Of a stretch of DNA of 64,000 nt, positions 46,703-64,000 are shown piece by piece. Origin of the DNA: Pseudomonas sp. B21-048 (GTDB lineage: Bacteria > Pseudomonadota > Gammaproteobacteria > Pseudomonadales > Pseudomonadaceae). Location of the stretch: positions 372,001 to 436,000 of the forward strand of contig NZ_CP087168.1 in assembly GCF_024748615.1 (NCBI RefSeq), in the 5' to 3' direction. The notes beneath the pieces are model-generated. The model made no database searches. It had not been told where the DNA came from and saw only the letters and a list, made by a program, of their open reading frames with translations. Made by a program: the position numbers and the translations under genes. Position 1 is the stretch's first letter. The number at the start of each line of letters is the position of its first letter.

Positions 46703-46783
46703 TTCGGACCTCGGAGGGTGCAGCCGGTCAGGCAATGAAAAAATCATATAACTGCCTAATAATTCAATCCAATATATTGTTCG

Positions 46784-46809: not shown

Positions 46810-46820
46810 ATGGAGTTTTC

Positions 46821-47723
46821 ATGGAATTACGCCACCTGCGCTACTTCATCGCCGTCGCCGAAGAACTGCATTTCGGCCGCGCCGCCCAAGTGCTGGGCAT
46901 CTCGCAACCGCCGCTGAGCCAGCAGATTCAGGCGCTGGAGCAGGAGGTCGGTGCCCGCCTTTTCGAACGGACCAATCGTCGGGTCGAACTCAGTGAGGCG
47001 GGGCGGTTGTTTCTGGAAGAGGCGCGATTGGTACTGGCTCAGGTCGACAAAGCGGCGGATGTGGCACGGCGGGCACAGCTCGGTGAGTTGGGTGAACTGA
47101 AAATCGGCTTCACTTCATCGGCGCCGTTCAACTCGACCATTCCCCAGGCAATTTTCTCGTTTCGCCAGCGCTTTCCGGCGGTGCATTTGCATCTGCAGGA
47201 AATGAGCAGCACCCAAGTGGCCGATGCGCTGGTGGATGAGTCGATCGAAGTCGGCATCATGCGACCGCTGGGGTTGCCGGACTCGCTCAGCGTGGTGGAA
47301 CTGACGCGCGAGCCATTGGTGGCGGTGCTCAGCTCCAAGCATCCGCTGGTGAGCTGCAGCGAAGAAGGCTTATTCCTCTCGGCGCTGGCCCTCGAACCGT
47401 TCGTATTTTTCCCACGTAGCTATGGCAGTGGTCTGTATGCCCAACTTCTCAGCTTGGCGCGGGATGCCGGTTTCAGCCCGCACTTTGCGCAAGAGGCTGG
47501 CGAGGCGATGACCATCATCGGGCTGGTGGCGGCGGGCTTGGGAGTGTCGGTGTTGCCGGCGTCTTATCAGCGGATGCGCATCGATGGCGTGGTGTATCGG
47601 CCTTTGCTCGATCCGGAAGCGGTGTCGGCGGTGTGGCTGGTGCAACGCAAGGATCAGAAATCGCCGATGGCGAAGGCGTTTGTGGAGTTGTTGACGCGTA
47701 AGGTTGAGCCGTTAATGCCATGA
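46821..47723 (+). CDS. LysR-family transcriptional regulator
   Basis: A 300-residue LysR-type regulator. The N-terminal winged helix-turn-helix (about 1-60) carries FGRAAQVLGISQPPLSQQIQALE. A linker helix and a two-lobed periplasmic-binding-like effector domain (about 90-295) follow. The sequence resembles the CatM/BenM branch that recognises aromatic or dicarboxylate-type effectors, but the ligand is unknown. It is transcribed divergently from the MFS transporter, the usual LysR arrangement, and is convergent with the gene at 47798. Confidence 0.93.
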   Translation: MELRHLRYFIAVAEELHFGRAAQVLGISQPPLSQQIQALEQEVGARLFERTNRRVELSEAGRLFLEEARLVLAQVDKAADVARRAQLGELGELKIGFTSSAPFNSTIPQAIFSFRQRFPAVHLHLQEMSSTQVADALVDESIEVGIMRPLGLPDSLSVVELTREPLVAVLSSKHPLVSCSEEGLFLSALALEPFVFFPRSYGSGLYAQLLSLARDAGFSPHFAQEAGEAMTIIGLVAAGLGVSVLPASYQRMRIDGVVYRPLLDPEAVSAVWLVQRKDQKSPMAKAFVELLTRKVEPLMP

Positions 47724-47761
47724 CCGCGAGCGCCCGGAAAGAGGAAAGGGAAATGACTGTG

Positions 47762-47785
47762 AAAGGGCGCCGAAAGGCACCCTTT
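47762..47785. terminator. Hairpin between convergent genes
   Basis: AAAGGG and CCCTTT form a six-base-pair stem, extended past one mismatch by GCC/GGC around a GAAA loop. Either flanking transcript could end here, but no long T-run is present. Confidence 0.45.
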
Positions 47786-47797
47786 GTCGTTCTAGTG

Positions 47798-48244
47798 TTA
47801 CTGAACCTTCGCCAAATCCCCTTTCAACGCAACGCCCGCCATGATCGCCCCAGCGTGGCATTCATAGGTTTTGGCATCCTTGCGCTCGTTGCTCTTGTAA
47901 AAGCTGACGATGTTGGTCACGGCGTTAGCGCCGGCGTTTTTCGCCGCTTGGTGCAGGCTGATGATTGCCGATTGCACGACCCACTCGCAGGCCACTTGGT
48001 CCGACTTGTTGAAGGCGTTGGTTTTCTTGTTAGTCACGGAACCCGCGCTGAGAACGGTGACGTTGCCTGCCGGTGTGTTGCCCGCCAGGTAGAACTTTAC
48101 GCTGCCATCGATTTTGCCGGTGCGGGTAGCTTCGGCGACTGCTTTGTCAAAAGGCAGATACACCGCGGTATCACGGGCCTGGCTGATGCCCGGCAACGCG
48201 CAGATCAGCAGGGTGGCGGCGGTAGCGAGTTTCTTGAAGTGCAT
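47798..48244 (-). CDS. Small exported protein of unknown function, end of the APE gene run
   Basis: The 148-residue protein has a clear signal peptide (KKLATAATLLICALPGISQA) and a mature part of about 125 residues. Cys86 and Cys129 could form a disulfide. A motif AAKNAGANAVTNIVSFYKS resembles the alanine/glycine-rich turn of YbjQ/RcsF-like small folds, but this is only a visual impression. Similar Pseudomonas proteins are sometimes labelled excinuclease without basis. A strong AAGGAG site precedes the ATG. It is 29 bases downstream of the last ketosynthase gene on the same strand, so co-transcription with the polyene operon is possible. Function is not recognised. Confidence 0.75.
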   Translation of the reverse strand: MHFKKLATAATLLICALPGISQARDTAVYLPFDKAVAEATRTGKIDGSVKFYLAGNTPAGNVTVLSAGSVTNKKTNAFNKSDQVACEWVVQSAIISLHQAAKNAGANAVTNIVSFYKSNERKDAKTYECHAGAIMAGVALKGDLAKVQ

Positions 48245-48273
48245 GGAGGTCTCCTTGACCCTGAGTAATTCGA

Positions 48274-49500
48274 TTATGACCAGCGGCGGAAAATCAACGA
48301 GGTGTTGACCCCACCAAAAGCGAAATTGTTGTTCATCACGTACTGATTGCTCATCTGCCGGAACTCACCGCGCAGGTAATCGAGCTTGCCGCACCGCGGA
48401 TCGACCTCATCAAGGTTGAAGGTGTGCACGTATTGGTCGCGGTTCATCATTTCGATGCTAAACCAGGACTCCAGCGCGCCGCAGGCTCCCAGGGTGTGAC
48501 CGAGGAAACTCTTCTGCGAACTGATCGGCATGTGTTCGCCGAACAATGCGCTGGTGGCCAGTGTTTCGGCAATGTCGCCCTGTTCTGTAGCGGTGCCATG
48601 ACCGTTCACGTAGCCGATGTCCGAAGGCTGCAGTCCGGCATCTTCCAGGGCGAGTTCCATGGCCCGGCGCATGGTGATTTGCTCGGGGCGGGTGGCGTGC
48701 TGACCGTCGGCGTTGCTGCCGAAACCGACGATCTCGGCATGGATATGTGCGCCGCGTGCCAGGGCGTGTTCGAGCTCTTCGAGCACCAGCATGCCGCCGC
48801 CTTCACCGATTACCAGGCCATCGCGGCCGGTGTCGTAAGGGCGAGGGCTGGTTTGCGGGGCATCGTTTTTCAGGCTGGTGGCGTAGAGCGCATCGAACAC
48901 CATGGCTTCGGTCGGACACAACTCTTCGGCGCCGCCGGCGAGCATCAGCGGCAGACGGCCGAACTTGATCGATTCGTAGGCGTAACCGACGCCCTGGCTG
49001 CCGCTGGTGCAGGCGCTGGAGGTCGGGATCAGCCTGCCGGTGAGGCCGAAGAAGATGCTGATATTCGCCGCCGTGGTGTGCGGCATCATCCGCACGTAGG
49101 AGTTGGCGTTCAAGCCTTCGGCCACCGAGTTGAGCAGCATATTGCCGAATGCCTTGATCTCGTCGGTGCTGCCGGTGGACGAGCCACAGGCCACGCCCAT
49201 GCGCCCGTCCTTGATCGATTCGTCTCCCAGCAGACCGGCGTCCGCCAGGGCCTGTTCAGCCGCGCCTACGGCCAGGCGCGAAACGCGGCCCATGCTGCGC
49301 AGTTGCTTGCGGGTCCAGTGGCTCGGCACCTTGAAGTCATCGATCGGCCCGGCCAGGCGGGTGCTGAGTTCGGTAAAACGATCCCACTCGTCCATCCGGC
49401 GGATGCCGCTGCGGTTGGCGGCGAAGTTGGCGGCGATGGTCTCCCAATCGCTGCCCAGTGAGGTGATGCCGGCCATGCCGGTGACGACGACGCGCTTCAT
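48274..49500 (-). CDS. Beta-ketoacyl-ACP synthase (FabF-type), APE cluster
   Basis: This condensing enzyme probably extends the polyene chain with malonyl-ACP units. The ATG start at 49500 gives 408 residues; GTG and CTG codons just upstream are less likely. The FabF-type catalytic set is complete: Cys164 (SSACTSG), His301 (NGHGTATEQGD), Lys330 and His335 (LGHTLGAC). It overlaps the ketoreductase gene by four bases or fewer (ATGA). As all catalytic residues are present, it is an active synthase rather than a chain-length factor. Confidence 0.93.
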   Translation of the reverse strand: MKRVVVTGMAGITSLGSDWETIAANFAANRSGIRRMDEWDRFTELSTRLAGPIDDFKVPSHWTRKQLRSMGRVSRLAVGAAEQALADAGLLGDESIKDGRMGVACGSSTGSTDEIKAFGNMLLNSVAEGLNANSYVRMMPHTTAANISIFFGLTGRLIPTSSACTSGSQGVGYAYESIKFGRLPLMLAGGAEELCPTEAMVFDALYATSLKNDAPQTSPRPYDTGRDGLVIGEGGGMLVLEELEHALARGAHIHAEIVGFGSNADGQHATRPEQITMRRAMELALEDAGLQPSDIGYVNGHGTATEQGDIAETLATSALFGEHMPISSQKSFLGHTLGACGALESWFSIEMMNRDQYVHTFNLDEVDPRCGKLDYLRGEFRQMSNQYVMNNNFAFGGVNTSLIFRRWS

Positions 49501-50228
49501 CAGCACAGGCCTCCATTGACGGCCAGAACCTGCCGGGTGATGTACGACGCTTCCGCCGACATCAGGAAATTCACCGCGCCGGCCACCTCTTCCGGGGTGC
49601 CCATGCGTTGCGCGGGGATCATTTTCATCAGTTCTTCCACCGGCACGTTTTCATCGAGCATCGCCGTGTCGATCAGGCCGGGTGCGACACAGTTAACCGT
49701 GATTTTGCGCTTGCCCAGTTCGATCGCCAGCGCCTTGGCTGCGCCGATCAGACCGGCCTTGGATGCGCTGTAATTGACCTGGCCGCGATTGCCGATCAAC
49801 CCGGACACCGAAGTAATGCAGACAATTCGCCCGGCGGCGCGACGACGGATCATCGGCATCATCACCGGGTGCAGCACGTTGTAGAAACCGTCGAGATTGG
49901 TGCGCATCACCAAATCCCAATCCTCTTCGCTCAGGGCCGGAAAAGCACCGTCGCGGGTCAGGCCGGCGTTGAGCACCACGCCGTAATAGGCGCCGTGGGT
50001 TTCGACGTCGGCTTCAAGAATCGCTTTGCAACGGGCACGGTCAGACACGTCAAATTGCAGGATGCGAGCGGTGCGGCCCAGGGCCTCGACTTCGGCCTTG
50101 ACCGCTTCGGCGTCTGCCAGGCCACTGCGGCAGTGCAGCACAATGTCATGCCCGGCCCGCGCCAAGCGCAATGCAATGGCGCGGCCGATACCACGGCTGG
50201 AGCCGGTGACCAGTACGGATTCAGTCAT
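49500..50228 (-). CDS. 3-oxoacyl-ACP reductase (FabG-like), APE cluster
   Basis: This SDR-family ketoreductase reduces beta-ketoacyl-ACP intermediates with NADPH. The ATG at 50228, eight bases after AAGGAG, gives 242 residues. The Rossmann motif is VTGSSRGIGRAIA (8-20). The active site has Ser140 (with Ser142 adjacent), Tyr153 and Lys157 (YSASK). The C-terminal dimer region ends VLAVNGGLC. It overlaps both neighbours by a few bases and supplies the hydroxyl for dehydration during polyene formation. Confidence 0.95.
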   Translation of the reverse strand: MTESVLVTGSSRGIGRAIALRLARAGHDIVLHCRSGLADAEAVKAEVEALGRTARILQFDVSDRARCKAILEADVETHGAYYGVVLNAGLTRDGAFPALSEEDWDLVMRTNLDGFYNVLHPVMMPMIRRRAAGRIVCITSVSGLIGNRGQVNYSASKAGLIGAAKALAIELGKRKITVNCVAPGLIDTAMLDENVPVEELMKMIPAQRMGTPEEVAGAVNFLMSAEASYITRQVLAVNGGLC

Positions 50229-50686
50229 CACTCGACTCCTTGGGGTTCATGAAGATATTGCGCGGCCTGAGGCGGGCGATACACGTTCAGCCGGCCGGTG
50301 GCGTGGATGCCAGGGGCAGTGAGGTGGCATTCGAACACACCCATGCCGTTGTCGTCTTCGAGCGAACGTATCCCATGGATGGTCAACTCGGTGCCGACGG
50401 GGAAGTGTTCCACGTTGCATTCGAATTTACGGGTGCCGAGCAGGAAGCCCAATTCCACCGCATTGCCTTTCTGGCGCGCATGGCAGCCGGCATACGCGGC
50501 GACGCTCTGGGCCATCAGCTCGATGCCGACCCAGGCCGGCAGGCTGCCGTCGGGGCGATTGAACAGGCCACCGGGTTTGACGGTGAGTCGGGTGTGAATC
50601 TGCTCGTCGTCGAACGACAGGATCTGCTCGATGAGGATCATGTCGCCGGCGTGCGGCAACAGTTCGGCGATCGGCCAGGCAATCAT
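50228..50686 (-). CDS. Hotdog-fold 3-hydroxyacyl-ACP dehydratase (ApeP-like)
   Basis: This small dehydratase would introduce the double bonds of the polyene. The 152-residue protein has the family features LPHAGDMILIE near the N terminus, the catalytic-type His12, and the central helix WVGIELMAQSVAAYAGCHAR. These fit the ApeP/FabZ-like group seen in aryl polyene clusters. It overlaps the ketosynthase upstream and the ketoreductase downstream. Confidence 0.88.
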   Translation of the reverse strand: MIAWPIAELLPHAGDMILIEQILSFDDEQIHTRLTVKPGGLFNRPDGSLPAWVGIELMAQSVAAYAGCHARQKGNAVELGFLLGTRKFECNVEHFPVGTELTIHGIRSLEDDNGMGVFECHLTAPGIHATGRLNVYRPPQAAQYLHEPQGVE

Positions 50687-51879
50687 GGGGCGTCTCCGAT
50701 AATCAGGCTGACGTTATTGCCACCGAAGGCAAAGGAATTGCTCATCAGGTAGCGAGGTGCAATGGACGCCAGGTGGTCGGTCGGGGTCACCCAATGCAGG
50801 GCCGGCAATTCAGGGTCGGGCTGACCGTCCCAGACGTGGGGCGGCAGGGCGTGCTCGCGGTTGTCCGCGCTCAGGCTCAACCAGCAGAACGCCGCCTCCA
50901 GGGCACCGGCAGCGCCGAGGGTGTGGCCGGTCATCGGTTTGGTCGATGAGCAGGGCACGCCTTGCGGGAATAGTGTGGTCACGGCCAGGCTTTCCATGGC
51001 GTCGTTGTGTTGGGTGGCGGTACCGTGCAGGTTCAGGTAACTGATCTGCTGCGGTTGCAGGCCTGCGCGGCTCAAGGCTTTGTGCATCGCCTGCTGGGCG
51101 CCACGGCCGGTTGGTTCCGGCGCGGAAATATGATGCGCATCGGAGCTGGCGCCACTGCCGAGCAGGGCAACCGGTTGGCTGTTACCGGCGTTTTTGCTCA
51201 TCAGAAACAGCACCGCGGCTTCGCCGATGTTGATGCCATTGCGGTTCGCCGAGAACGGATTGCAGCGCTGTTCGGACACCGCTTCCAGGGCCGAGAAACC
51301 GTTGAGGGTCAGCTTGCACAAACTGTCGACACCACCGCACAACACGGCGTCGCACAGGCCCAGATCGAGTAGTCGTTGAGCACTCATCAGCGCGCGGGCG
51401 CTGGAGGTGCAGGCGGTAGAAATTACATAGGCCGGGCCGCTCAATTGCAGCCAGTCGGCGAGAAACGTCGCTGGCGCGCCGAGTTCCTGTTGCTGATAGT
51501 CATAATCGGCGGGGAACTGATGCTCACGGATGTAATGGGCCAAGCCTTGGCTGGCCTCGTGAATGCCCGAGGTGCTGGTGCCGAGAATGACGCCGATACG
51601 GTCGCGGCCGTAGGTCTGGATGGCCTGCTCGATGTCTTGGCGAATTTGCAGCGCGGCCTCCAGCAGCAATTGATTGTTGCGACTGCTTTGCTGCGCCAGC
51701 TCAGGCGGAATCGGCGCCAATTCACCGCGCACCGCCGCGACTGGCAACGAGCGTTCAACGACCCAGCCGGTCTCGCTGCGCATGCCCGAGCAATCGCCGG
51801 CAAACAGGTTGCGGGCGACTTCCTGCTTGTCGCGGCCCAGGGCGCAGATCACTCCGAGTGCATTCAGATAAGCCGTCAT
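50683..51879 (-). CDS. Beta-ketoacyl-ACP synthase, second APE-cluster copy
   Basis: A 398-residue condensing enzyme divergent from the one at 48274. It keeps Cys157 (TACTSS), His285 (LHGTATQHND), Lys314 and His319 (TGHTLGAAG), so it should be active. In characterised APE systems one ketosynthase pairs with a chain-length factor. Since both copies in this window look catalytic, any non-catalytic partner must lie beyond 64000 or be absent. It overlaps the lipoprotein gene by four bases. Confidence 0.92.
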   Translation of the reverse strand: MTAYLNALGVICALGRDKQEVARNLFAGDCSGMRSETGWVVERSLPVAAVRGELAPIPPELAQQSSRNNQLLLEAALQIRQDIEQAIQTYGRDRIGVILGTSTSGIHEASQGLAHYIREHQFPADYDYQQQELGAPATFLADWLQLSGPAYVISTACTSSARALMSAQRLLDLGLCDAVLCGGVDSLCKLTLNGFSALEAVSEQRCNPFSANRNGINIGEAAVLFLMSKNAGNSQPVALLGSGASSDAHHISAPEPTGRGAQQAMHKALSRAGLQPQQISYLNLHGTATQHNDAMESLAVTTLFPQGVPCSSTKPMTGHTLGAAGALEAAFCWLSLSADNREHALPPHVWDGQPDPELPALHWVTPTDHLASIAPRYLMSNSFAFGGNNVSLIIGDAP

Positions 51880-52358
51880 GGCGTGTGCTCGCCTAACGGA
51901 GTGACGCGATAGTGCGGGCCTTGGGACACGTTCAATTCAAAGCTCAGTGGTTGTGAATAGCGGATGTTCCAGCGCGGTGGCAAGGACCGTTGCCCGCCAT
52001 CCTGCCGGGCGGCGGGATAATTGCCCTGCAATTCGCCCGCTGGGGTCAACGCAAACAACAAGGCAGCAAACAGCTCCCGAGCTTCCGGATTGGGCGGCAG
52101 CAGGCCGTCGGCCTGCCATTGGCTATCGATCAGCTTCTGCCGTGCTACGGGAATCCCCAAAGGGTCCATCATTGACCAGCGAATGCCCGGGCCTTCACGC
52201 TGGATTACCAGCAGCCAGTCCAGACGTTGCTCGGCCATCTGCCGTTCGATGTGCAGTTGCAGCGGCAACACCAGGTTCGGGGTTCGCTCGGGCAGCGGCG
52301 CCTGGCTGGCGCAGGCACTCAGCAGCAGGACACAACCCAGGAGCAGGAAACGGATCAT
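51876..52358 (-). CDS. DUF3261 lipoprotein, APE cluster
   Basis: This predicted lipoprotein of the DUF3261 family typically accompanies aryl polyene clusters. The start at ATG 52358 gives 160 residues. The signal ends in the lipobox LLSAC, with Cys16 as lipidation site. Position +2 is Ala, which does not favour inner-membrane retention, so outer-membrane location is likely. The role is unknown but could be in receiving or anchoring the polyene lipid with the LolA-like carrier and MMPL exporter. It overlaps the methyltransferase upstream (ATGA). Confidence 0.82.
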   Translation of the reverse strand: MIRFLLLGCVLLLSACASQAPLPERTPNLVLPLQLHIERQMAEQRLDWLLVIQREGPGIRWSMMDPLGIPVARQKLIDSQWQADGLLPPNPEARELFAALLFALTPAGELQGNYPAARQDGGQRSLPPRWNIRYSQPLSFELNVSQGPHYRVTPLGEHTP

Positions 52359-53083
52359 CAGGCACACCCTTCAAGGGGCTTGCGCGCGACCACATTGACC
52401 AGGGTTTCTTCCCGCTGGCCAAAGGGTTTCGGCTGGCGCAGGCCGAAGCGTTCGAGCAGGCCGAAATCCTTGGCGCGACTCCACCACAAGTAAGGGTAAG
52501 ACACGTTCTGCGGGCCGAATTCAAAACCCTGGCGACGAATCATGTCCAGGTAGCCGGCGGCGCTCTTCTGCACGTGCATCGGGTGGCGGAACAGCCAGCG
52601 AATCACCCACGTATCAATGTAAGCCTCGGTGGACTCGGCGAACAGCAAATAGCCGCCCGGCTTGAGCACCCGATAGAACTCGGCCAGGGCTTGATCCTGC
52701 TTGACGAGGTGATGGAAAGTCTGGTGACAGAACAGCAGATCGACACTGGCGTCCGGCACTTTGATGCTCGCGCAGTCACTGCCAATCAGTTCTACATCCA
52801 TGCCCTGGCGGGCCGCTTCTTCACCGCTCAGGTTCAGGCTGTGAGGATCGGCATCCAGCCCGAGCAGGCGCCGAGGCGCGAAGGTCTGGCGCAGGTACTG
52901 GAACGACTTGCCCTGGCCGCAACCGGCATCCAGCAATACCGGATCAGCGGGCAGCGGCGTGCTGAACAGACCGCGCAAATCATTGATCGCCACGCGCAAT
53001 ACATGGTGCTGCCAGGTGTGACTGCGCAGGAACCAGAAACCGAAACGGGTTTCTTCGACGTAGTTGTCGCTCAAGTAACTCAT
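52358..53083 (-). CDS. SAM-dependent methyltransferase, APE cluster
   Basis: A class I methyltransferase. The start at ATG 53083 (MSYLSDNYVE) gives 241 residues. SAM-binding motif I is VLLDAGCGQGKSFQYL, followed by the acidic GLDADPHSL and the post-motif LLFCHQTFHHL. In APE systems such enzymes can methylate the aromatic head group or ring hydroxyl; the target here is not known. It overlaps the flavin enzyme gene by four bases. Confidence 0.88.
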   Translation of the reverse strand: MSYLSDNYVEETRFGFWFLRSHTWQHHVLRVAINDLRGLFSTPLPADPVLLDAGCGQGKSFQYLRQTFAPRRLLGLDADPHSLNLSGEEAARQGMDVELIGSDCASIKVPDASVDLLFCHQTFHHLVKQDQALAEFYRVLKPGGYLLFAESTEAYIDTWVIRWLFRHPMHVQKSAAGYLDMIRRQGFEFGPQNVSYPYLWWSRAKDFGLLERFGLRQPKPFGQREETLVNVVARKPLEGCA

Positions 53084-54327
53084 GTCGGATCCTGTGCGCA
53101 ATGGTCCGAGATCATCCGCAGCCGACGTTTGGGTTCGCTGACGAAGGGGTTGCGTTCATCCCAGGCGTAACCCGCGAGGATCGAGCTGATCATACGGCGG
53201 ATATCCGCTGTGCCGTGCTGATAGAAAATTACATCCTGAAAGGTCCCCGCGTACCAGCCTTCGACGTAGCAACGGAAGGTGTTGACGCCGCGCTTGAGCG
53301 GCTCGGCGAACTCGGTCTGCCAGTCGACGCTTTCACCTTGCAGTTGGCGGTGCAGCACCCCGGCAGCCATGCTTGCCGAGCGCATGGCGATGGTCACGCC
53401 GGAGGAGAACACCGGGTCGAGAAATTCCGCCGCATTGCCCAGCAGGGCGAAACCTTGGCCGTGCAGCGTTTTGACGTTGGCCGAGTAACCGCCGATGGTC
53501 CGCGCGGGCGTATCCCACACAGCGTTATCCAGCACACCGGCCAGGCTTGGAGTTTCTGCGATGAAGCCGCGCAGGCAGTCGTCCAGATTCTCGGTGCGGC
53601 CTTCGAAGTGTTCGGCGGCCGCCACTACGCCCACCGAGCAACGACCGTTGCTGAACGGGATGGTCCAGAACCAGATATCACGCTGGGTCGGATGGGTGGT
53701 GATGAGGATTTTTTCCCGGTCGAAAGCCGGGTTGTCGATACGGTCTTCGACATGGGTGAACACGGCCTGGCGCACTGGAAAGTTCGACGGTGCTTCAAGG
53801 TCCAGCAAGCGTGGCAGCACGCGACCGTAGCCGCTGGCATCGAGCACGAAGTTGGCCTCGACGCGGTATTGGCTGCCGTCTTCGCGAAGCACATCGAGCT
53901 GCGGTTTCGCCAGGCTGAAATCGGCGTTGACGATGGCTTCGCCGTAACGCACGTCGACCCCTTGCAACTCAGCCTGATCGGCCAGCAGCTTGTCGAAATC
54001 GGCGCGCTGGACCTGGAACGTCGTCGGCTTGCCATTGCTGAATGTGTCACCGAAATCGAAGGCGCTGTACTGATCGCCCCAAGCGAACGCTGCACCGTTT
54101 TTGCGCTGGAAACCGGCGGCGTTTACCGCCTCGAGCATGCCGGCTTCTTCGACGAAATCCAGGCAGTGGGACAGTAGGCTTTCACCGATGGAAAACCGTG
54201 GGAAATGCTGGCGCTCGATCATCAGCACATCATGACCTTTACGCTTGAGCAGCGCGGCGGCGATGGCGCCCGAGGGGCCTGCGCCGATCACCAGTACCTG
54301 ACGACGTTCCATTTCAATTGTTGGCAC
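53080..54327 (-). CDS. FAD-dependent enzyme with halogenase-like motifs, APE cluster
   Basis: This is a flavin monooxygenase-fold protein. The GTG at 54327, five bases after AAGGAG, gives 415 residues; an ATG five codons later lacks a site. It shows the FAD motif VIGAGPSGAIAA (13-24), a GES segment (48-50) and K76 in GFQRKNGAAFAWG. It also has WFWTIP (219-224), which fits the WxWxIP box of flavin-dependent halogenases. These features match aliphatic or carrier-tethered phenol halogenase-like enzymes, but the same fold includes non-halogenating hydroxylases. It sits between the antiporter-like and methyltransferase genes. Role in head-group tailoring is inferred. Confidence 0.8.
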   Translation of the reverse strand: MPTIEMERRQVLVIGAGPSGAIAAALLKRKGHDVLMIERQHFPRFSIGESLLSHCLDFVEEAGMLEAVNAAGFQRKNGAAFAWGDQYSAFDFGDTFSNGKPTTFQVQRADFDKLLADQAELQGVDVRYGEAIVNADFSLAKPQLDVLREDGSQYRVEANFVLDASGYGRVLPRLLDLEAPSNFPVRQAVFTHVEDRIDNPAFDREKILITTHPTQRDIWFWTIPFSNGRCSVGVVAAAEHFEGRTENLDDCLRGFIAETPSLAGVLDNAVWDTPARTIGGYSANVKTLHGQGFALLGNAAEFLDPVFSSGVTIAMRSASMAAGVLHRQLQGESVDWQTEFAEPLKRGVNTFRCYVEGWYAGTFQDVIFYQHGTADIRRMISSILAGYAWDERNPFVSEPKRRLRMISDHCAQDPT

Positions 54328-55474
54328 GGGTGCTCCTTGCCGGGACGGCGATGTTCAAAGGGATTCGGTGCATGCCAGCCAGTGCCGGCAGCAGGGTTGC
54401 GATCAGGCCCATCAACATCAGCGCGAAATACAGCGCCGGGCTGATGAGCTGTTGTTGCAGCAGCAGGTTGAGAAAGACAATCTCGCTCAAGCCGCGAATA
54501 TTCAGTAAAAGGCTTTCCCGCCAGCGGTTGGCACCTTCAAACGAGGCGCCAGCCCAGCCCAGACCCAGCCAGTTGCCCAGCAATTTGCTGGCAATCGGCA
54601 ACAGCAGGAGCGCGGCCAGTTGCAACCCGTCGAGACTATCGATGGCGCTGTGCACGTTGATCTGCACGATGCCGAACGTGAGGATCAGCGGGATGGCGAT
54701 CCAGGTCTGCAAACGGCTCATCCACGCCGCCGACAATGGCAGCACCAAGGGTACCTTGAGCGCGGCCATGCACAGCAGGTAGCCGATGCCGAAAATCAGC
54801 GCATTGAGTTTGAAATGTTCGGCGACCACCAGTAGCGCGAAGAAACAGCCGCTGTGCAGCAACGGTTGGCGCAAGCCGAGCAATCGCAGCAACAACGGCA
54901 GGCAGGCGCCAGCCAGCGGTAGCAAGAGGCTGCTCAGGTGCAGGCTGCCCTGGGCGAACGCGAACAGGGTCCAGCAGGTCAGGTCGATCAGGATCGCGGT
55001 CTGCACCAGACGCCGGGTGGCAGCGGGCGGATAGTTGATGTGTCGCAGGTACAGATACAACACCGGAATCGCGGTGATGGCGAACAGCAGACCGACCGCC
55101 AGCGAACTGATCCACGGCTGCGGCGGCAACAGCCAGACCGCTGTCGTCAGCCCGCAGGCAAAGGGAATGCAGAAACTTGGTAAGGCAATTTTCAGGCTCT
55201 GGCGTTCCAGCCGCAGGTCGATCACGTCGCTGAGGATGTGCCCCAGCAGCAAGGCAAAACTCAGGCTGTAGAGGTTCTTCAGCCAGCCCTGCGAGATCAG
55301 ATCGGTACCGCTGAGATGCCAGCCCGGTTCGATCCACAAGTACATCAGCAGCGGCAGGCCGAAGGTCGCCAGCAACAACTGGCTGACGATCGGAATCAGA
55401 CCGAAATGACGACCGACACGGGTAGCCACGGCGAACAACACCAAGGCCATCACCCAGAACATCGCGACCATCAT
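54314..55474 (-). CDS. Cation/proton-antiporter-like membrane protein, APE cluster
   Basis: A polytopic inner-membrane protein with about 10-12 hydrophobic segments, similar in layout to CPA2 sodium/hydrogen exchangers. The start at ATG 55474 overlapping the MMPL stop (ATGA) gives 386 residues. The segment RGLSEIVFLNLLL resembles the conserved region of Na+/H+ exchangers. Its place within a polyene export operon is unusual. It might energise or regulate export or be involved in pH response, but neither is shown. Its C terminus overlaps the flavin enzyme start. Confidence 0.7.
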   Translation of the reverse strand: MMVAMFWVMALVLFAVATRVGRHFGLIPIVSQLLLATFGLPLLMYLWIEPGWHLSGTDLISQGWLKNLYSLSFALLLGHILSDVIDLRLERQSLKIALPSFCIPFACGLTTAVWLLPPQPWISSLAVGLLFAITAIPVLYLYLRHINYPPAATRRLVQTAILIDLTCWTLFAFAQGSLHLSSLLLPLAGACLPLLLRLLGLRQPLLHSGCFFALLVVAEHFKLNALIFGIGYLLCMAALKVPLVLPLSAAWMSRLQTWIAIPLILTFGIVQINVHSAIDSLDGLQLAALLLLPIASKLLGNWLGLGWAGASFEGANRWRESLLLNIRGLSEIVFLNLLLQQQLISPALYFALMLMGLIATLLPALAGMHRIPLNIAVPARSTRANN

Positions 55475-57810: not shown

Positions 57811-58396
57811 GTTGCTCCGCATCGCTCAACGGTTGGGCGCTGGTGCTGTCCTGCATGCGCAACTGGGTTCGGTCGCCCTGGGTTTCGAGCAGCTCGATGC
57901 TGTGCACCAGTTCGCCGCCGTCAATGTTGATCTGATTGAACACCTGCTTGAGCAGCATCGAACGCGGGGTCAGGGTCAGCTTCCAGTTTTGTGCGTCGCC
58001 GCTCAGCGACAGCTCGAAATCCCGCTGCAGGCCGCTGCTGTCGCCTTGCAGCACCGCGAGGAACAAACGGTTCTGCTCGGCACCGGCACTCTTGTTCGGC
58101 AGCATTTGCCAACCGTTGGCATCACGTCGGGCAATGCCCTTGTCGCTGATGCGATAGTCCTGTTGCAGCGGGGTTTTCAGCAGCCAGAGCAGGCCGTGAT
58201 TCTTCGCCAGAACAAAGGTGCCCTTGCTGGTCAGCGGCTGGGGCAGGGCACGCAGGTGTTTTTCCTGGATGAAGCTGCCGTGGATCACGTCGGGCTTGGC
58301 CAGTTGATCGCTGAGTTGCTGTAGATCGAAAGCCTGCGCCAATGATGAAAGCCCGAGCAACGCTAAAGCGCCGAGGCATTTGAACAGCGAATTCAT
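57794..58396 (-). CDS. LolA-like outer-membrane lipid carrier, APE cluster
   Basis: A periplasmic protein of the LolA fold, which carries acylated molecules in a hydrophobic half-barrel. The 200-residue precursor has a signal peptide ending LAQA, then repeated beta-strands with the features GSFIQEKHLRALPQPL and KGTFVLAKNHGLLW typical of LolA-like proteins. Cluster-encoded versions are thought to shuttle the polyene lipid to the outer membrane, separate from the housekeeping LolA. It overlaps the thioesterase (ATGA). Confidence 0.87.
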   Translation of the reverse strand: MNSLFKCLGALALLGLSSLAQAFDLQQLSDQLAKPDVIHGSFIQEKHLRALPQPLTSKGTFVLAKNHGLLWLLKTPLQQDYRISDKGIARRDANGWQMLPNKSAGAEQNRLFLAVLQGDSSGLQRDFELSLSGDAQNWKLTLTPRSMLLKQVFNQINIDGGELVHSIELLETQGDRTQLRMQDSTSAQPLSDAEQHDFAE

Positions 58397-58818
58397 GGGA
58401 GCATCCTTTCAACCGCGTCGGTGAACACCTTCGGTGAAGCGAGCTGCATTTCGCGGCTGCTCATGTCGACGGCGACCTGGACTGAAACAGCGCGGGTCAA
58501 ACGTTCACCGGTTGCGAGGTCGCTGATCAGGTAATTGATCTTCAGACGGTTTTCCCACTCCACCAGGTTGGCACGCACATTCAGCTTCTGGCCGAACACG
58601 GCACCGCGCACATAGCGCAGCTGCAAGTCGATCACCGGCCACGCGAAACCTGACGCCACCATGGCTTCGTAGTTGTGGCCGATCTTGTCCAGCAGCGCAC
58701 AGCGAGCGACTTCCAGGTATTTGACGTAATGGCCGTGCCAGACCACGTTCATGGTGTCGACGTCAAAAAACGGTACGAGGATTTCCGTGTCGGTGTGAAG
58801 CACTCCCTTGCTACGCAT
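58393..58818 (-). CDS. Acyl-CoA/ACP thioesterase (hotdog), APE cluster
   Basis: A 141-residue 4-hydroxybenzoyl-CoA-thioesterase-like hotdog protein. The signature VDTMNVVWHGHYVKYLEVAR holds the conserved Asp17-type residue (here in FFDVDTM) near residue 18. It could hydrolyse the finished polyene thioester, clear stalled chains, or process the aromatic starter. It starts with ATG and overlaps the end of the ammonia-lyase gene by eight bases. Confidence 0.88.
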   Translation of the reverse strand: MRSKGVLHTDTEILVPFFDVDTMNVVWHGHYVKYLEVARCALLDKIGHNYEAMVASGFAWPVIDLQLRYVRGAVFGQKLNVRANLVEWENRLKINYLISDLATGERLTRAVSVQVAVDMSSREMQLASPKVFTDAVERMLP

Positions 58819-60355
58819 GCAGCCTCCAGTGTTGATCGGCGATGCGTTTCAGGCACAGGCGTAATTCGCCTTCCAGCGCACGGTCTTCGATGACCGGCGG
58901 GAAGTCCTTGGCCAATTCTTCGTGCATCGCGGCCAGGGCCGGTGGCAGTGGGCGCGCGTCTTCAGCCTGGCCGCGCAGCCAGACGCCTTGGTTGGCGGCC
59001 AGCAGCGTGGCGGCGGCGACCTGTTCGGTCAGCTCCAGCACACGAATGGCGTCGCGGGCAGAGATGGTGCCCATGCTGACTTTGTCCTGGTTGTGGCACT
59101 CGGTGGAACGCGAGAAGACGCTGGCCGGCATGGTGTTTTTCAGGGCCTCGGCGGTCCAGGCGCTGGTGCCGATCTGCACGGCCTTGAAGCCGTGGTTGAG
59201 CATCGCGCGGTCGGCGGTTGCGCCAGACAGATTGCTCGGCAAACCATGGTTGTAACGCTCGTCCACCAACAGTGCGAGCTGACGGTCGAGCAAGTCAGCG
59301 ACGTTCGCCACCAGGGTTTTCAGGCTGTCCATGGCGAACGCGATATGGCCGCCGTAGAAGTGCCCACCGTGCAGCACGCGTTCGGCTTCGGCGTCGATGA
59401 TCGGGTTGTCGTTGGCGCTGTTGAGTTCGATCTCGATGAACGAGCGCAGCCAGTTCAGGCTGTCGGCCAATACACCGAGCACGTGCGGCGCACAACGCAG
59501 GGAATAGCGGTCTTGCAGGCGATGCAGCGGCGCGGTCGGCGCATCGATCGCCAGGTCCTTGCGCAACCACGCGGCGACTTGCATCTGCCCAGGATGAGGT
59601 TTGGCCGCGAACAGGCGCTCGTCGAAGTGCTCCGGATTGCCCTGCAACGCGACCACGTTCAGCGCGGTAATGCGCGTGGCCAGTTGCAGCAGGTAATCAG
59701 CGCGGGCGTAAGCCAGGCAGGCGAGACCGGTCATGACGGCGGTGCCGTTCATCAATGCCAGTGCTTCTTTGGGGCGCAATACCAGCGGCTCCCAGCCCAG
59801 TTCGCGGTGCACATCGGCGGCTTGTCGACGCTCGCCACGAAACATCACGTCGCGCTCGCCGGACAAGGTCGCGGCCACATAGGACAGCGGCGTCAGATCA
59901 CCGCTGGCGCCCACCGAACCTTCTTCCGGGATCAGCGGCAGGATGTCGTGTTCGAGGAAGGCTTGCAGACGTTCCAGCAACTCCACGCGCACCCCGGAAA
60001 CGCCGTGGCACAGCGACTGCAAACGCGCTGCCAGCACCGCACGGGTGGCTTGGGCGTCGAGCAGTTTGCCCAGGCCGCAGCCGTGAAACGTGTACAGATG
60101 ACGGGGCAATGCCTCGACGTGATGCAGCGGCACCGCGACCACACAGGAATCGCCATAACCGGTGGTCACGCCATAGATCACACCTTCCTTGTCCAGCAGG
60201 GAGTCAAGGAACTGCGGGCCCTTGGCGATGCGCTGGCGAAACTCAGGGTCGTTTTGCAACTGCGTCGGCGCCTGACGGTTGGCCAGGGCCAGCACGTCTT
60301 CGATGCGCAAAGGGAGTTCGCCGAAGGTTACCGGCTCAAGCGTTGGCGTCGTCAT
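58811..60355 (-). CDS. MIO-type aromatic amino acid ammonia-lyase, APE cluster
   Basis: A histidine/phenylalanine/tyrosine ammonia-lyase-family enzyme that would deaminate an aromatic amino acid to a cinnamate-type acid, a plausible polyene starter. The start at MTTPTLEPVT gives 514 residues; 50 upstream residues are non-conserved. Ala150-Ser151-Gly152 forms the autocatalytic MIO cofactor (VGASGDLTPL), with Tyr61 in YGVTTGYGDS as catalytic base. The selectivity pair, as aligned by eye, is Phe90-His91. That differs from Ser-His (HutH), His-Leu (bacterial TAL) and Phe-Leu (plant PAL). Substrate is therefore open, with tyrosine favoured by context. Confidence 0.92.
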   Translation of the reverse strand: MTTPTLEPVTFGELPLRIEDVLALANRQAPTQLQNDPEFRQRIAKGPQFLDSLLDKEGVIYGVTTGYGDSCVVAVPLHHVEALPRHLYTFHGCGLGKLLDAQATRAVLAARLQSLCHGVSGVRVELLERLQAFLEHDILPLIPEEGSVGASGDLTPLSYVAATLSGERDVMFRGERRQAADVHRELGWEPLVLRPKEALALMNGTAVMTGLACLAYARADYLLQLATRITALNVVALQGNPEHFDERLFAAKPHPGQMQVAAWLRKDLAIDAPTAPLHRLQDRYSLRCAPHVLGVLADSLNWLRSFIEIELNSANDNPIIDAEAERVLHGGHFYGGHIAFAMDSLKTLVANVADLLDRQLALLVDERYNHGLPSNLSGATADRAMLNHGFKAVQIGTSAWTAEALKNTMPASVFSRSTECHNQDKVSMGTISARDAIRVLELTEQVAAATLLAANQGVWLRGQAEDARPLPPALAAMHEELAKDFPPVIEDRALEGELRLCLKRIADQHWRLHA

Positions 60356-61283
60356 CGGTCTTCCAGAAAGGGTAAAAGTTGAACCATTGTTGGGGCGCTT
60401 CGAGGCAATAGTGACCCAGGCGTTCGGCGTAGCGGGAGGCGCACTGGTGAATGACCTGTTCGCGGTCGCCGCGTTTCCACACGATGGCATCGGCGAACGG
60501 TTCAAGGGTCAGTCGATACTCGCCCGTGGGTTTCTTCAGGCACAGCATCAGGTTGATCGGGCATTTCAGCAGGCCGGCCAGCAGCCATGGGCCCTGAGGA
60601 AACGCGGCTTGATAGCCGAGGAAATCCACGCTCACGCTGCGTCCGCCATGCAGCGGCACGCGGTCGCCGGCAATTGCCAGCCATTCGCCGCGCTCCAGGC
60701 GTTCATGCAGTTGCAGCATGATTACCGGGTCCAGTTCGCTGACCTGAATCAGCCGCAGATTGGTCGCCCCGGCTTCGCCCAGCAGACGGTTGAATTGTTC
60801 GGCGTGCTTGGTATGCACCAGCACGTTCATGGTGACTTTCTCGCCGATCTCGGCCAGCGCCCGACAGACCTCGAGATTGCCCAGGTGCGCGCCCACCAGC
60901 ATTTGCCCGCGTGTGCCGCGCAGTTTGTTGCGCAGCAGCGCCGGGTCGATGATTTCGATTTGCTCGATGCTCAGCTTGCCGTTCCACACGTCGAGTTTGT
61001 CGAGCATGGAGTCGGCGAAGGCCATGAACTGGCCAAACACCCGCCAATGGGTCGGGCGCAATTCATTGCGAGCGCTCCAGTCGGCAAGCCGCTGCTGGTA
61101 TTGCCAGGCGCTTTGGCGGGCGCTGCGCCCGAACAGAAAAAAGTACAGCACGATGCCGTACAGCAACGGGCTCAACAACCGACGGCCCAAGACTTTTGCG
61201 CAGAGCGCGGTGAACTTCATCAGCCAGAAGCTGCCACGTTCCTGGTGGTCGGCCCAGTGCTGTTTGTCTGCGTTGTCGCTCAT
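60336..61283 (-). CDS. LpxL/HtrB-like acyltransferase, APE cluster
   Basis: A membrane-associated acyltransferase of the lipid A lauroyl-transferase family. It could attach the polyene or a fatty acid to the lipid or sugar anchor. The start at MSDNADKQHW gives 315 residues. An N-terminal hydrophobic helix (about 33-52) precedes the HX4E catalytic motif His133-Glu138 in GAHLGNLEVC. A second conserved block is LAIAGDRVPLHGGR. It overlaps the lyase start by 20 bases, indicating coupled translation. Confidence 0.88.
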   Translation of the reverse strand: MSDNADKQHWADHQERGSFWLMKFTALCAKVLGRRLLSPLLYGIVLYFFLFGRSARQSAWQYQQRLADWSARNELRPTHWRVFGQFMAFADSMLDKLDVWNGKLSIEQIEIIDPALLRNKLRGTRGQMLVGAHLGNLEVCRALAEIGEKVTMNVLVHTKHAEQFNRLLGEAGATNLRLIQVSELDPVIMLQLHERLERGEWLAIAGDRVPLHGGRSVSVDFLGYQAAFPQGPWLLAGLLKCPINLMLCLKKPTGEYRLTLEPFADAIVWKRGDREQVIHQCASRYAERLGHYCLEAPQQWFNFYPFWKTDDDANA

Positions 61284-62014
61284 GCTCGCCACCGTCGCCA
61301 GAGGATCACCGGTGCCCGCAGCAACATGCCGAAGAACAGCCGGGTGTGCATGCTCGAAATCAGTACATTGTCGTGGAACAAGCGGAAATGCGAGACGCCA
61401 TCCAGAGGGTAATGGACCCTGGTTTTCAGCCACTGCATCGGCTGATTGCGCCAGGCCAGGCGTACCAGAATGTCGGAGTCGAAGTCCATGCGTTTACCTA
61501 TTCTGGCCGAGTCGATCAGTGCCAGGGTTGACGGTAATGGATAGACGCGGAAGCCGCACATGGAGTCGCGAATCTGCAACGACAGGGTGTTGATCCAGAC
61601 CATCACATGAGTCAGGTAGCGGGCGTACAAACGCCCCCTCGGGACGCTGGCGTCGTAATGCGGGTAACCGCAGATCACCGCTTCGGGATGGGTGCGCGAA
61701 TGCTCAATGAACACTTTGACGTCTTGCAGGTCATGCTGGCCGTCGGCGTCCACCTGCAAGGCATGGCTGAAGCCCAGCCGCGAGGCTTCGCGCAAACCGG
61801 TCATTACCGCGCCGCCCTTGCCTTGATTGACGGTGAGCCTGATCAGATAAACCCGATCACGCAGGGCCAGTCGGTCAAGCACTTTGGCGCAGACCGGACT
61901 GCTGGCATCGTCCACCAGAATGCATGGCAGGCCACAAGCAAGCAGCGCCTCAACCACGGCAGTGATGGCGGTTTCGTGGTTGTAGACCGGGATTACGGCG
62001 CAGGGGTTATGCAT
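61280..62014 (-). CDS. Glycosyltransferase family 2, APE cluster
   Basis: A GT-A-fold glycosyltransferase of the dolichol-phosphate-mannose-synthase-like type. The start at [10 protein letters not shown] gives 244 residues. It carries VDDASS, the loop NQGKGGAVMTG, and the metal-binding DxD within DADGQHD. No multi-spanning C-terminal region is present, so it acts at the cytoplasmic membrane face. It may add the sugar or polar anchor of the aryl polyene lipid. It is coupled to its neighbours by four- and eight-base overlaps. Confidence 0.9.
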   Translation of the reverse strand: MHNPCAVIPVYNHETAITAVVEALLACGLPCILVDDASSPVCAKVLDRLALRDRVYLIRLTVNQGKGGAVMTGLREASRLGFSHALQVDADGQHDLQDVKVFIEHSRTHPEAVICGYPHYDASVPRGRLYARYLTHVMVWINTLSLQIRDSMCGFRVYPLPSTLALIDSARIGKRMDFDSDILVRLAWRNQPMQWLKTRVHYPLDGVSHFRLFHDNVLISSMHTRLFFGMLLRAPVILWRRWRA

Positions 62015-63689
62015 TGCCTGAGGCCTCCAGCAAAATCCGCCCACTGGAGCACATGGCGGTTTCATTGCGATAGGCGAAATACAATTTGCCGCGTGCCGGG
62101 TCGAAGCGCAGGTGCAGCTGGATTTCATCACCGGGACGCACCAGTTGCTGGAATTTCAGCACTTCCATACCGGCGAATTTCGCCGGCAGGTCCATCAATT
62201 GCTGGCCCAGGCTCAATGCCCAATCCACCTGCACCACACCGGGCAATACCGGCGTTTGAGGGAAATGGCCGCTGAAATATGCCAGGTCTGGCGGGACAGC
62301 CAGTTGCAGGTTCCACTCGCCATCGGTGTCGATCTGTTCCAGCACTTGCGGCGCCTTTGGGCGTGGTGCCAGCAATATGCTCTCCACTTCGGCCTGAGGC
62401 AGTTTGCCTTGAGCGTTCAGTGGCAGTTGTCGCAACAGGCGCCAGCGACGGGGCAGAGCGAGTGCTTCGCAATGCTGGCTCAGGTGTTGGCGCAACTCCT
62501 GAGTAAGAGTACGTCGACCCTGATTGCGCAAGGCATGCAAACCCTGCTCGCTCAACACCAGCAACGCGCCCAGCGAAGCACGGTTTTCCTGGACGACGCC
62601 AAGCCGCGCTTCAGCGACCCACTCATGGGTCATCAGCGCCTGTTCCAACATCGGTAGCGAGATACGTTTTTCTTCCAGTTTGACGATCCGGTCCAACCGT
62701 CCCAACAGCTCGAAACGGCCGTCGGCGGCGATGCGCGCGGAATCGGCGGTGTGTTCGATATGGCCGGCCGGCAAGTACGGTGACGCAATAAGCAGGGCGC
62801 CATCGCTGTCCTGGCTCAGCGCAACTTCGGCGAAGGGCTGCCAGAGATTCTGGCCCTGACGCCAGGCGATGCCGCCGGTTTCCGAGCTGCCGAAGATTTC
62901 GGTCGGCCACTGTTGCAGGCGTTCATACAGGCTTTGCGCCGCTTCGGCGGGCAACGCGCCACCGGAGGAAAACACTCGGCGCACCGCGTTCAGCGCTGGC
63001 CAGTCGAGGTTGTCGCCCATGCGTTTGAGCAGCGCCGGGCTGGCGACCCAGGCGAAGGCCGGGTGTTCGCGGCTGGCGCGTTGCAGGTCTTCCGGGAAGG
63101 CCAGTTGTTTACGCACGAACGAGCGCCCGGCGCACAACGGCCACAGCACGCGAAACAGCAACCCGTAGATATGTTGAGTGGCGACGCTGCCGATGATGCG
63201 GGCTTCGCCCAGATCCGCGCCCCACAGATGCTCCAGCGCTTGGACTTCATTGGCCAATTGGCGCAGGGTTTTGTCGATGCGCTTGGGCTCGCCACTGGAG
63301 CCGGAGGTGCACAGGCTCAGCTGACAACGATCCAGGTCCAGTGGGTTGGCCGGCAGCGGTGGATGCTGATAGTCGCTCAGGTGCGCGTCGTCGGCCTGAT
63401 CGGTCAGCCACAGATCGACCTCGGTCGACCAGCGCTGGCGAGTCTGCGCTTGCAGATCGGCGGGCAGCAGCACGCTGACCCCGGCACGCCAGGCGCCGAG
63501 CAGGGCAATGGCCAGGTCGGCGGCGTCCTCAAGGTGCACGGCGATGCGCTGCACGCCCTGCGCTTGCAGACCGGCAGCCAGGCTCAGGGCCTGTTCGCAC
63601 AATTGCGCGTGATTCAACGCCGGTTCCACCGTCACGGCACGGTCCGGCTGAGCCTTGAGCAACAATTGCTCAAGTGTTATCCAATTCAT
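62007..63689 (-). CDS. AMP-ligase fused to hotdog dehydratase, APE cluster
   Basis: A two-domain protein of 560 residues (start [10 protein letters not shown]). Residues about 1-440 are an adenylate-forming acyl-CoA/ACP synthetase with [15 protein letters not shown] (127-141), GSSETGG (267-273), [14 protein letters not shown] (330-343) and the catalytic Lys429 in AQGKL. Residues about 450-555 are a FabA/FabZ-like hotdog domain with [14 protein letters not shown] (474-487). In characterised systems the aromatic-acid ligase and the dehydratase are separate; here one chain could load the starter and dehydrate. The dehydratase His is His475. Confidence 0.92.
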
Positions 63690-64000
63690 GGGCGGCCTCT
63701 TACCCGTTGTCGTATAAGCCATTCAATGGCAAACATCAGGCCGATCAATCCATAGGAGATCAGGCCGGTGTACAACATCCACCAACTCAGCGGCGCCCAA
63801 AGAGTCAGGGCGGCGGCGCACAAGCCGTTACAGAGAAAAAACACGCTCCAGGCAATCGTCACCTGGCGGGTGTAGCGAATGGCCCTGGCCGGTAATTGCG
63901 GTTCTCGCAGACGGGCCAGGCGTTCAATCACCGGTGGGCCATATTTCAGGCTAAGACCGAACAGCACCAACATGAATGCGCTGATCAGCACCGGGTACCA
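63686..64000 (-). CDS. COG4648-like membrane protein, APE cluster (partial, cut by window edge)
   Basis: The reading frame stays open to the window end, with in-frame Trp-Tyr-Pro-Val ahead of LISAFMLVLF, so the N terminus is missing. About 105 C-terminal residues are seen, with three hydrophobic helices and the charged loop RLREPQLPARAIRYTRQVT. The type and position fit the small COG4648 membrane proteins always found next to the APE AMP-ligase. Function is unknown. It overlaps the ligase gene by four bases (ATGA). Confidence 0.75.
   Translation of the reverse strand, partial: WYPVLISAFMLVLFGLSLKYGPPVIERLARLREPQLPARAIRYTRQVTIAWSVFFLCNGLCAAALTLWAPLSWWMLYTGLISYGLIGLMFAIEWLIRQRVRGRP

Follow-up and report, generated by a model that had tools for sequence, protein, structure and literature searches.

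The window analysed here is a stretch of 64,000 nucleotides of Pseudomonas sp. B21-048 (bases 372001-436000 of a 5.71-Mb single-contig genome; coordinates past 64000 are window-equivalent), and a run of 20 overlapping or abutting minus-strand genes (48274-66252) enters it from beyond its right edge. Very probably, judging from the encoded proteins, this run is a complete operon for aryl polyene biosynthesis and outer-membrane export, of the kind containing an aromatic amino-acid ammonia-lyase that is found in Aliivibrio fischeri and Pseudomonas. New here are the single fixed slot in which the lyase is swapped in and out of such operons and the residues of the ligase ApeH that track its presence. 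They offer a fresh clue that tyrosine or phenylalanine may supply the first building block, in place of the Escherichia coli route.

Identity and layout of the operon

To identify the run, its proteins were compared by blastp with the 18 encoded by the apeA-apeR operon of E. coli CFT073, whose functions are as described in PMC8253772 (papers are cited here by PMC number). ApeC, D, E, F, G, H, I, J, K, L, M, O, P, Q and R were matched at 29-58% identity and in the E. coli order; ApeA and ApeB had no blastp match in the run. Catalytic motifs were intact in ApeR, ApeO, ApeQ, both acyl carrier proteins (ACPs) and the lyase. The run encodes two ketosynthases with catalytic triads, ApeO and ApeR (Cys-His-His in ApeR, with the motifs SACTSG, HGT and GHTLG), and an ApeC-type chain-length factor without the ketosynthase cysteine motif, as well as two ACPs with serine attachment sites (DSVD and DSID motifs) beyond the window edge, the ligase ApeH, the dehydratases ApeI and ApeP, the reductase ApeQ, and the set ApeD, ApeJ, ApeK, ApeL and ApeM for lipid attachment and export. 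No phosphopantetheinyl transferase gene was found in the run; two are present elsewhere in the genome, which also encodes UbiC, so neither ACP activation nor 4-hydroxybenzoate should be lacking. The product is predicted to be a yellow outer-membrane pigment lipid.

The initial annotation, which saw the window only, had placed the run in the aryl polyene class, and rightly so, as ApeC-ApeR homologues stand in E. coli order with the ACPs, ApeC and ApeD upstream. Its companion label "xanthomonadin-type" was looser: the genome has no match to the XanB2 chorismatase family, and head-group supply looks lyase-based. It had also noted extra members in the Pseudomonas version. Inside the run, four genes are additional to the E. 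coli set: that of the lyase, that of a membrane protein with several spans, and those of a halogenase-family flavoprotein and a methyltransferase. The CFT073 operon, as described in PMC8253772, likewise has its ApeC-ApeR genes in this order, overlapping and on one strand, and has no phosphopantetheinyl transferase gene of its own. The run here differs in that matches to ApeA and ApeB are missing, ApeH and ApeI are fused, ApeJ is split in two, the four extra genes are present, a 148-aa secreted protein is encoded downstream and ApeN is barely recognisable.

In order of transcription the genes encode ApeC, ApeD, ApeE, ApeF, ApeG, the ApeH-ApeI fusion, a glycosyltransferase and an acyltransferase (together equivalent to ApeJ), the lyase, ApeK, ApeL, ApeM, a 386-aa membrane protein, the flavoprotein, the methyltransferase, an ApeN-like lipoprotein, ApeO, ApeP, ApeQ and ApeR. 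All 19 junctions of the run fell between a 25-base overlap and a 9-base gap, lengths that depend on the chosen gene starts (the lyase start was trimmed to the ATG at 60355). Four-base overlaps made up 9 of the 19, and the remaining ten were overlaps of 1, 7, 8, 20 or 25 bases or gaps of 1, 4 or 9. From this tight packing the 20 genes are probably co-transcribed, the transcript being deduced from spacing. A gap of ~350 bp separates apeC from a divergent ParA-type gene, and the 701-base upstream region contained two promoter-like matches on the minus strand (0.4 expected from shuffling), one of which is listed in Table 1. The ParA-type ATPase gene (L003:4617-5387, plus strand) lies just past the operon start and has this upstream region in common with apeC.

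Much of this layout had been anticipated. The initial annotation counted at least 16 consecutive minus-strand genes with named domains, all of which were present at 48274-64000, the sixteenth (ApeG) being cut by the window edge. It also judged the run incomplete there, and the operon start was indeed found beyond 64000: the start of ApeG, the two ACPs, the acyltransferase and ApeC, which begins at 66252, are followed by the divergent upstream region. Absence of upstream ACP genes had been named as a refutation, and both were found just past 64000; a promoter-like site, also looked for upstream, was found there too, and a phosphopantetheinyl transferase was not. The statement that nearly every junction is an ATGA overlap was overstated (8 of the 15 in-window junctions have a four-base overlap, one of them GTGA), while the tight packing stands. 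The same-strand gene directly downstream of ApeR had been missed.

Table 1. Features of the aryl polyene run and its downstream gene, in window coordinates
Feature	Position	Strand	Basis
148-aa secreted protein, 21st gene	47798-48244	-	no Pfam match; predicted fold weakly similar to YbjQ/DUF74 and RcsF
ApeR-like ketosynthase (initiation)	48274-49506	-	54% to E. coli ApeR over 408 columns; NCBIfam PRK09116 above cut-off
ApeQ-like ketoreductase	49500-50231	-	58% to E. coli ApeQ; GSSRGIG and YSASK motifs
ApeP-like dehydratase	50228-50686	-	Pfam PF22817 E 7.9e-22; 41% to E. coli ApeP
ApeO-like ketosynthase (elongation)	50683-51879	-	49% to E. coli ApeO over 396 columns; catalytic motifs
ApeN-like LolB-type outer-membrane lipoprotein	51876-52358	-	position; lipobox LSAC; DUF3261 E 0.0014, below gathering score
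S-adenosylmethionine-dependent methyltransferase (Pseudomonadaceae accessory)	52358-53083	-	Pfam Methyltransf_11 E 1.8e-23; no blastp match to E. coli ApeB
FAD enzyme, flavin-dependent halogenase family	53080-54312	-	PF04820 E 1e-23; WxWxIP and FxxKxGA motifs
386-aa multi-spanning membrane protein, antiporter-like motifs	54314-55474	-	10 hydrophobic segments (crude hydropathy scan)
ApeM-like MMPL/RND exporter	55471-57789	-	PF03176 E 5e-05; 29% to E. coli ApeM over 660 columns
ApeL-like periplasmic LolA carrier	57794-58396	-	PF03548 E 6.9e-10; 32% to E. coli ApeL
ApeK-like thioesterase	58393-58818	-	PF13279 E 2.1e-11; 46% to E. coli ApeK
MIO-type aromatic amino-acid ammonia-lyase	58811-60355	-	PF00221 E 1.8e-161; ASG (MIO) motif
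Lipid A-type acyltransferase, C-terminal half of ApeJ as separate gene	60336-61283	-	PF03279 E 1.9e-15; 36% to E. coli ApeJ 246-550
Family 2 glycosyltransferase, N-terminal half of ApeJ as separate gene	61280-62014	-	PF00535 E 1e-15; 55% to E. coli ApeJ 6-242
ApeH-ApeI fusion (AMP-forming acyl-ACP ligase and dehydratase)	62007-63689	-	PF00501 and PF22818 (ApeI-like); E. coli ApeH and ApeI matched in series
ApeG-like membrane protein	63686-64231 (window part ends 64000)	-	blastp to E. coli ApeG
ApeF ACP	64228-64482	-	beyond window
ApeE ACP	64492-64767	-	beyond window
ApeD acyltransferase	64748-65557	-	beyond window
ApeC chain-length factor	65533-66252	-	beyond window; 239 aa, PF13723
Promoter-like site	66375-66347	-	beyond window

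The ammonia-lyase and its slot across genomes

The ApeP family PF22817 was matched in 84 of 397 Pseudomonadota genomes at E <= 0.001, in 79 of them over the cut-off. The survey consisted of 78 ApeP loci from these 79 genomes, with the window's own locus, second matches within a genome and genomes under the cut-off set aside, and genes were assigned by iterated profile search. Two loci with few or no core genes (L134, L135) and six cut by a contig end (L059, L061, L108, L115, L116, L134) were kept in the 78; two clusters (L085, L123) are rearranged, and the genes of L126 are divided between the strands. Twelve core genes (C, D, E, F, G, H, L, M, O, P, Q, R) stood in that order in 59 of the 78 loci across Pseudomonadota. 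The lyase was found in 42 loci, and in all 42 an ApeJ-type gene stands immediately ahead of it and ApeK behind it. Of the 36 loci without a lyase, 25 contain these two neighbours, and no other open reading frame (ORF) >150 aa separates them. On a tree of ApeO and ApeQ (76 rows: 74 loci, the window and E. coli), lyase presence required 10 changes, at least five of them on well-supported branches. The lyase thus acts as an exchangeable module with a constant place in the operon. Co-occurrence of lyase and flavoprotein left too few independent pairs for comparison. A family that includes a phosphopantetheinyl transferase lay near 28 of the 78 loci, and one representative matched PF01648. The clusters L127, L129, L130, L132 and L133 were aryl-polyene-like with no matches to ApeD, ApeF, ApeK, ApeR or the lyase.

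A protein search with the lyase gave matches at E <= 1e-120 in 236 of 298 Pseudomonas genomes, and its closest named homologues are from Pseudomonas; a phage search returned distant matches only (9 records, all <60% identity). The operon is thus common, fairly ordinary and already known across Pseudomonas. Polyene genes in this genus are described in PMC3949708, aryl polyene clusters with an ammonia-lyase in PMC8719888 and PMC5851621, and the former of these two names lyase and acyltransferase as characteristic genes for the Pseudomonas clusters. The same two sources describe an aryl polyene core with an ammonia-lyase in APE Vf of A. fischeri ES114, which is likened to the present run by that description. 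One survey family, f16 (L071-L075, L077), carries flavoprotein and ApeB genes divergently upstream, unlike the window.

The window lyase has a Phe-His selectivity pair and the motif NQDKVSM in place of Ser-His and NQEDHVSM. An ASG motif for the 4-methylideneimidazole-5-one (MIO) group, a Phe/Tyr-His pair and NQDKVSM were found in 43 of 43 aligned operon lyases (42 from the survey and that of the window). The other two lyases of the genome have Ser-His and NQEDHVSM and are taken as HutH from these motifs, a Ser-His pair with NQED being what we take to be the HutH signature. These two HutH-type genes are adjacent (G000:C1:358852-361864) and lie upstream of the window, ~69 kb from the operon lyase. 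Identity of the operon lyase as HutH, a histidine ammonia-lyase (HAL), was rejected as unlikely in view of its Phe-His pair and NQDK, of Gln and not Glu at motif 2, and of the two HAL-type proteins elsewhere in the genome. The Glu versus Gln rule at motif 2 for HAL is given in PMC3992019, where Phe at motif 1 is a residue of the phenylalanine ammonia-lyase (PAL) type. Of the tyrosine ammonia-lyase (TAL) pattern, the motif-2 Gln is present and the first selectivity position is Phe, not His. As the motif-2 Gln speaks against HAL and the motif-1 Phe is PAL-type, the sequence makes it likely that the enzyme is a TAL or a PAL, either being possible. Its best NCBIfam match was the BagA/FevW tyrosine ammonia-lyase model, far under the cut-off (421 vs 1000 bits). 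On what the lyase of such operons in Proteobacteria acts, the literature searched, mostly at the level of titles and abstract openings, gave no report.

ApeH residues and the starter unit

ApeH sequences were aligned in 75 rows (loci with an ORF >380 aa, the window and E. coli), 74 of which are also in the tree, 42 with and 32 without lyase. Position 178 was Leu or Ile in 42/42 rows with lyase vs 6/32 without, position 273 Gly in 42/42 vs 7/32, position 242 Ser in 42/42 vs 9/32, and position 174 Ile or Val in 42/42 vs 8/32. Ranked by information on lyase presence, columns 178, 273 and 174 came 1, 2 and 5 of 324. By motif, we take ApeH 174, 178 and 273 to be I252, N256 and P354 in the twelve-residue specificity code of plant 4-coumarate:CoA ligase; in an alignment with nonribosomal peptide synthetases (NRPS), residue 174 presumably falls on the first specificity position of adenylation domains. 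Normalised mean information was 0.205 for the 11 variable pocket columns vs 0.112 for all columns, and 0 of 20000 random sets were as high; the raw ranks of the other pocket-code columns were unremarkable. A search of the PDB with ApeH-ApeI returned NRPS adenylation domains and two short chains matching the ApeI part. The residue pattern is suggestive of a pocket for a longer coumarate or cinnamate starter in lyase-bearing operons, so that a lyase-derived acid of this kind may stand in place of 4-hydroxybenzoate. Because the tree-controlled test described below is underpowered, we infer the starter step from the residues.

In the proposed pathway, the lyase would deaminate tyrosine (or phenylalanine) to p-coumarate (or cinnamate), which ApeH would load onto an ACP. 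By homology, ApeR and then ApeO with ApeC would extend the chain with malonyl units, and every round would be completed by ApeQ with ApeI and ApeP through reduction and dehydration, so that a conjugated polyene results. The head group may be decorated by the methyltransferase and the flavoprotein of the halogenase family. ApeK would release the polyene, ApeD and the split ApeJ would attach the lipid anchor, and ApeM, ApeL and ApeN, again by homology, would carry the product to the outer membrane. A start from p-coumarate would save one elongation round and could give the same polyene skeleton as the other route. A related beginning is found in the flexirubin cluster of Chitinophaga pinensis, where a lyase and an acyl ligase start a type II polyene pathway; there, FlxA is a characterised TAL despite its HAL-like motif 1 and FlxY a coumarate ligase (PMC3992019). 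The window lyase differs from FlxA in its Phe-His pair, and no dialkylresorcinol gene was recognised in the run.

Several points weigh against a lyase-fed aryl polyene operon. ApeN had no blastp match to E. coli ApeN at E 1e-2 and rests on a sub-threshold DUF3261 match, its position and a lipobox, and the aryl polyene product is a prediction from the genes. The Phe-His pair is neither the TAL nor the HAL pattern of PMC3992019, which also states that lyase substrates are not predictable from sequence. Without normalisation, the mean information of the pocket columns was not elevated relative to random column sets (p 0.34), and the ligase code was mapped onto ApeH after the columns had stood out. 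In the tree-controlled pairs test, only 5 supported pairs were obtained, of which on average 1.6-2.6 agreed and 0 disagreed, a result that is not significant. Six lyase-lacking loci (L076, L105, L106, L114, L129 and L130) have lyase-type residues at all four ApeH positions. A search for unlinked lyases covered the lyase-lacking genomes other than G408 and G399 (34 of 36) and found one of the operon clade in one of these six genomes (G545, locus L130), with 74% identity and on another contig, perhaps in a second cluster; the other five had only lyases of <=37% identity or none at E <= 1e-20. UbiC should also make 4-hydroxybenzoate available in the present genome.

Some of these points bear on a rival in which the same operon starts from 4-hydroxybenzoate supplied by UbiC, as in E. 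coli and Xenorhabdus, and the lyase serves another purpose or makes a side product. ApeH of X. doucetiae is reported to load 4-hydroxybenzoate (PMC8253772), and 36 of the 78 surveyed loci do without a lyase. We regard this as unlikely, but as a rival to be reckoned with: the lyase gene overlaps its neighbours within the operon, 236 of 298 Pseudomonas genomes have kept it, and loci that carry it differ from those that do not in the predicted pocket residues of ApeH.

Far less probable is a xanthomonadin operon proper, with 3-hydroxybenzoate from a XanB2 chorismatase as starter and a product brominated via the flavoprotein, and this reading was rejected. The chorismatase family PF21168, to which we take XanB2 to belong, had no match at E <= 0.001 in the whole genome, in a search in which no control genome matched either; the same search matched 2 of the 36 lyase-lacking genomes, G660 (~2 kb from the ApeP match) and G674, and none of the five unexplained genomes above. 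Both matched genomes carry rearranged lyase-lacking clusters (L123 in G660, L085 in G674), their chorismatases being of the FkbO/Hyg5 type. The halogenase-family gene would fit such an operon, but the closest solved relative of its product, 3nix, is not a proven halogenase. Xanthomonadin and arcuflavin clusters share the type II ketosynthase and chain-length factor with the run, and some, such as the Azoarcus arc clusters of PMC3949708, also have a halogenase, an antiporter and a methyltransferase (PMC3691225, PMC3949708). As described there, they use XanB2-type enzymes for hydroxybenzoate, whereas a lyase is present here.

Hardly credible, finally, is a fatty-acid or dialkylresorcinol-type lipid pathway: the ketosynthase and reductase families are common to fatty-acid synthesis, but ApeP-like, ApeI-like and ApeC-type proteins stand here in Ape order with an aromatic lyase and an acyl ligase, and the annotated genes of the run, which were given no separate search for it, include no recognisable gene of the DarA/DarB type.

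Accessory genes and the downstream neighbour

The flavoprotein of the preferred reading, an aryl polyene operon with a lyase-derived starter, was found in 52 of the 78 survey loci. The window protein contains WFWTIP and FQRKNGA; WxWxIP was present in 52 of 52 survey flavoprotein ORFs >300 aa and FxxKxG in 41 of 52 (one fixed stretch was read per ORF, which long upstream extensions may escape). We take a WxWxIP motif with an active-site Lys to be the signature of flavin-dependent halogenases. The best PDB match was 3nix (E 1.3e-108), an uncharacterised protein named flavoprotein/dehydrogenase, followed by CmlS (3i3l). Halogenation by this enzyme is possible on these motifs.

The 386-aa membrane protein was found in 7 of the 78 loci, all of the window's family. 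Of the 15 loci that make up this family, 11 have a methyltransferase gene between those of the flavoprotein and ApeO, and two further loci have a match elsewhere. Among the best 80 of 303 relatives of the membrane protein, taken from named Pseudomonas loci, 65 showed the order lyase, ApeM, membrane protein, flavoprotein, methyltransferase, ApeN and ApeO, 12 the same order with no methyltransferase match, and 3 lacked other pieces; the closest of these 80 include P. farris, P. lini, P. frederiksbergensis and P. mandelii. The TAIPVL block, Asp164 and the NIRGL-EIVFLN block were invariant in 8 homologues, and many relatives are named "sodium:proton antiporter" at NCBI. PF00999 (Na_H_Exchanger) was not matched by any of five homologues tried, and an hhalign comparison with five Na_H_Exchanger proteins encoded in the same genome gave a negative result (probability 0.4%). 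The AlphaFold model, with a predicted local distance difference test score (pLDDT) of 48, was too poor to use, and the 22-row alignment was 84% identical or more. The antiporter likeness is a resemblance of motifs only.

The 148-aa gene starts 29 bp after the ApeR stop, and the homologous gap in L090 is also 29 bp. Of the 78 ApeP loci, 26 had a member of its family, which in 23 of them follows the last core gene on the same strand at no more than ~0.8 kb. Members also occurred in 127 of 298 Pseudomonas genomes, some with two or three matches. In the first ten places listed there, compared by eye, the gene always shared the strand of the lyase and followed it at a distance of about 9.5-13.4 kb. 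The protein had no Pfam match. Its AlphaFold model (mean pLDDT 73) resembled DUF74/YbjQ proteins and, more weakly, the lipoprotein RcsF; the best Foldseek match was 3qkb (E 0.037), with RcsF 2y1b at E 0.12 and none at E <= 0.001. It is not recognisably ApeA, as profiles of E. coli ApeA and of the 148-aa protein each failed to find the other. Many database entries name its relatives "excinuclease", which looks like a misannotation. A plus-strand ORF at 47720-48268 was rejected as a gene; it has no Pfam or NCBIfam match, overlaps the conserved 148-aa gene and was read as antisense noise. At 45428-47723, an ORF for a major facilitator superfamily (MFS) transporter and a divergent LysR regulator gene have overlapping listed starts, the MFS start being probably listed too early. 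We regard the membrane protein and the secreted protein as lineage-specific or optional envelope accessories.

A wider picture can be offered as a tentative and rather doubtful proposal. Proteobacterial aryl polyene operons would fall into two starter types distinguishable by the ApeH pocket, one using 4-hydroxybenzoate and one lyase-fed with coumarate or cinnamate, the lyase being repeatedly gained and lost as a plug-in between ApeJ and ApeK. The Pseudomonadaceae type would have added the membrane protein, the methyltransferase and the RcsF-fold periplasmic protein; its pigment lipid would be a distinct one, methylated and possibly halogenated or hydroxylated, with a link to envelope sensing. 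The parts that merit follow-up are the starter-type hypothesis and the downstream secreted protein; otherwise the operon is an ordinary and widespread one. If the lyase and the ApeH pocket do mark a coumarate-primed type, starter chemistry would become readable from sequence for many Pseudomonas genomes.

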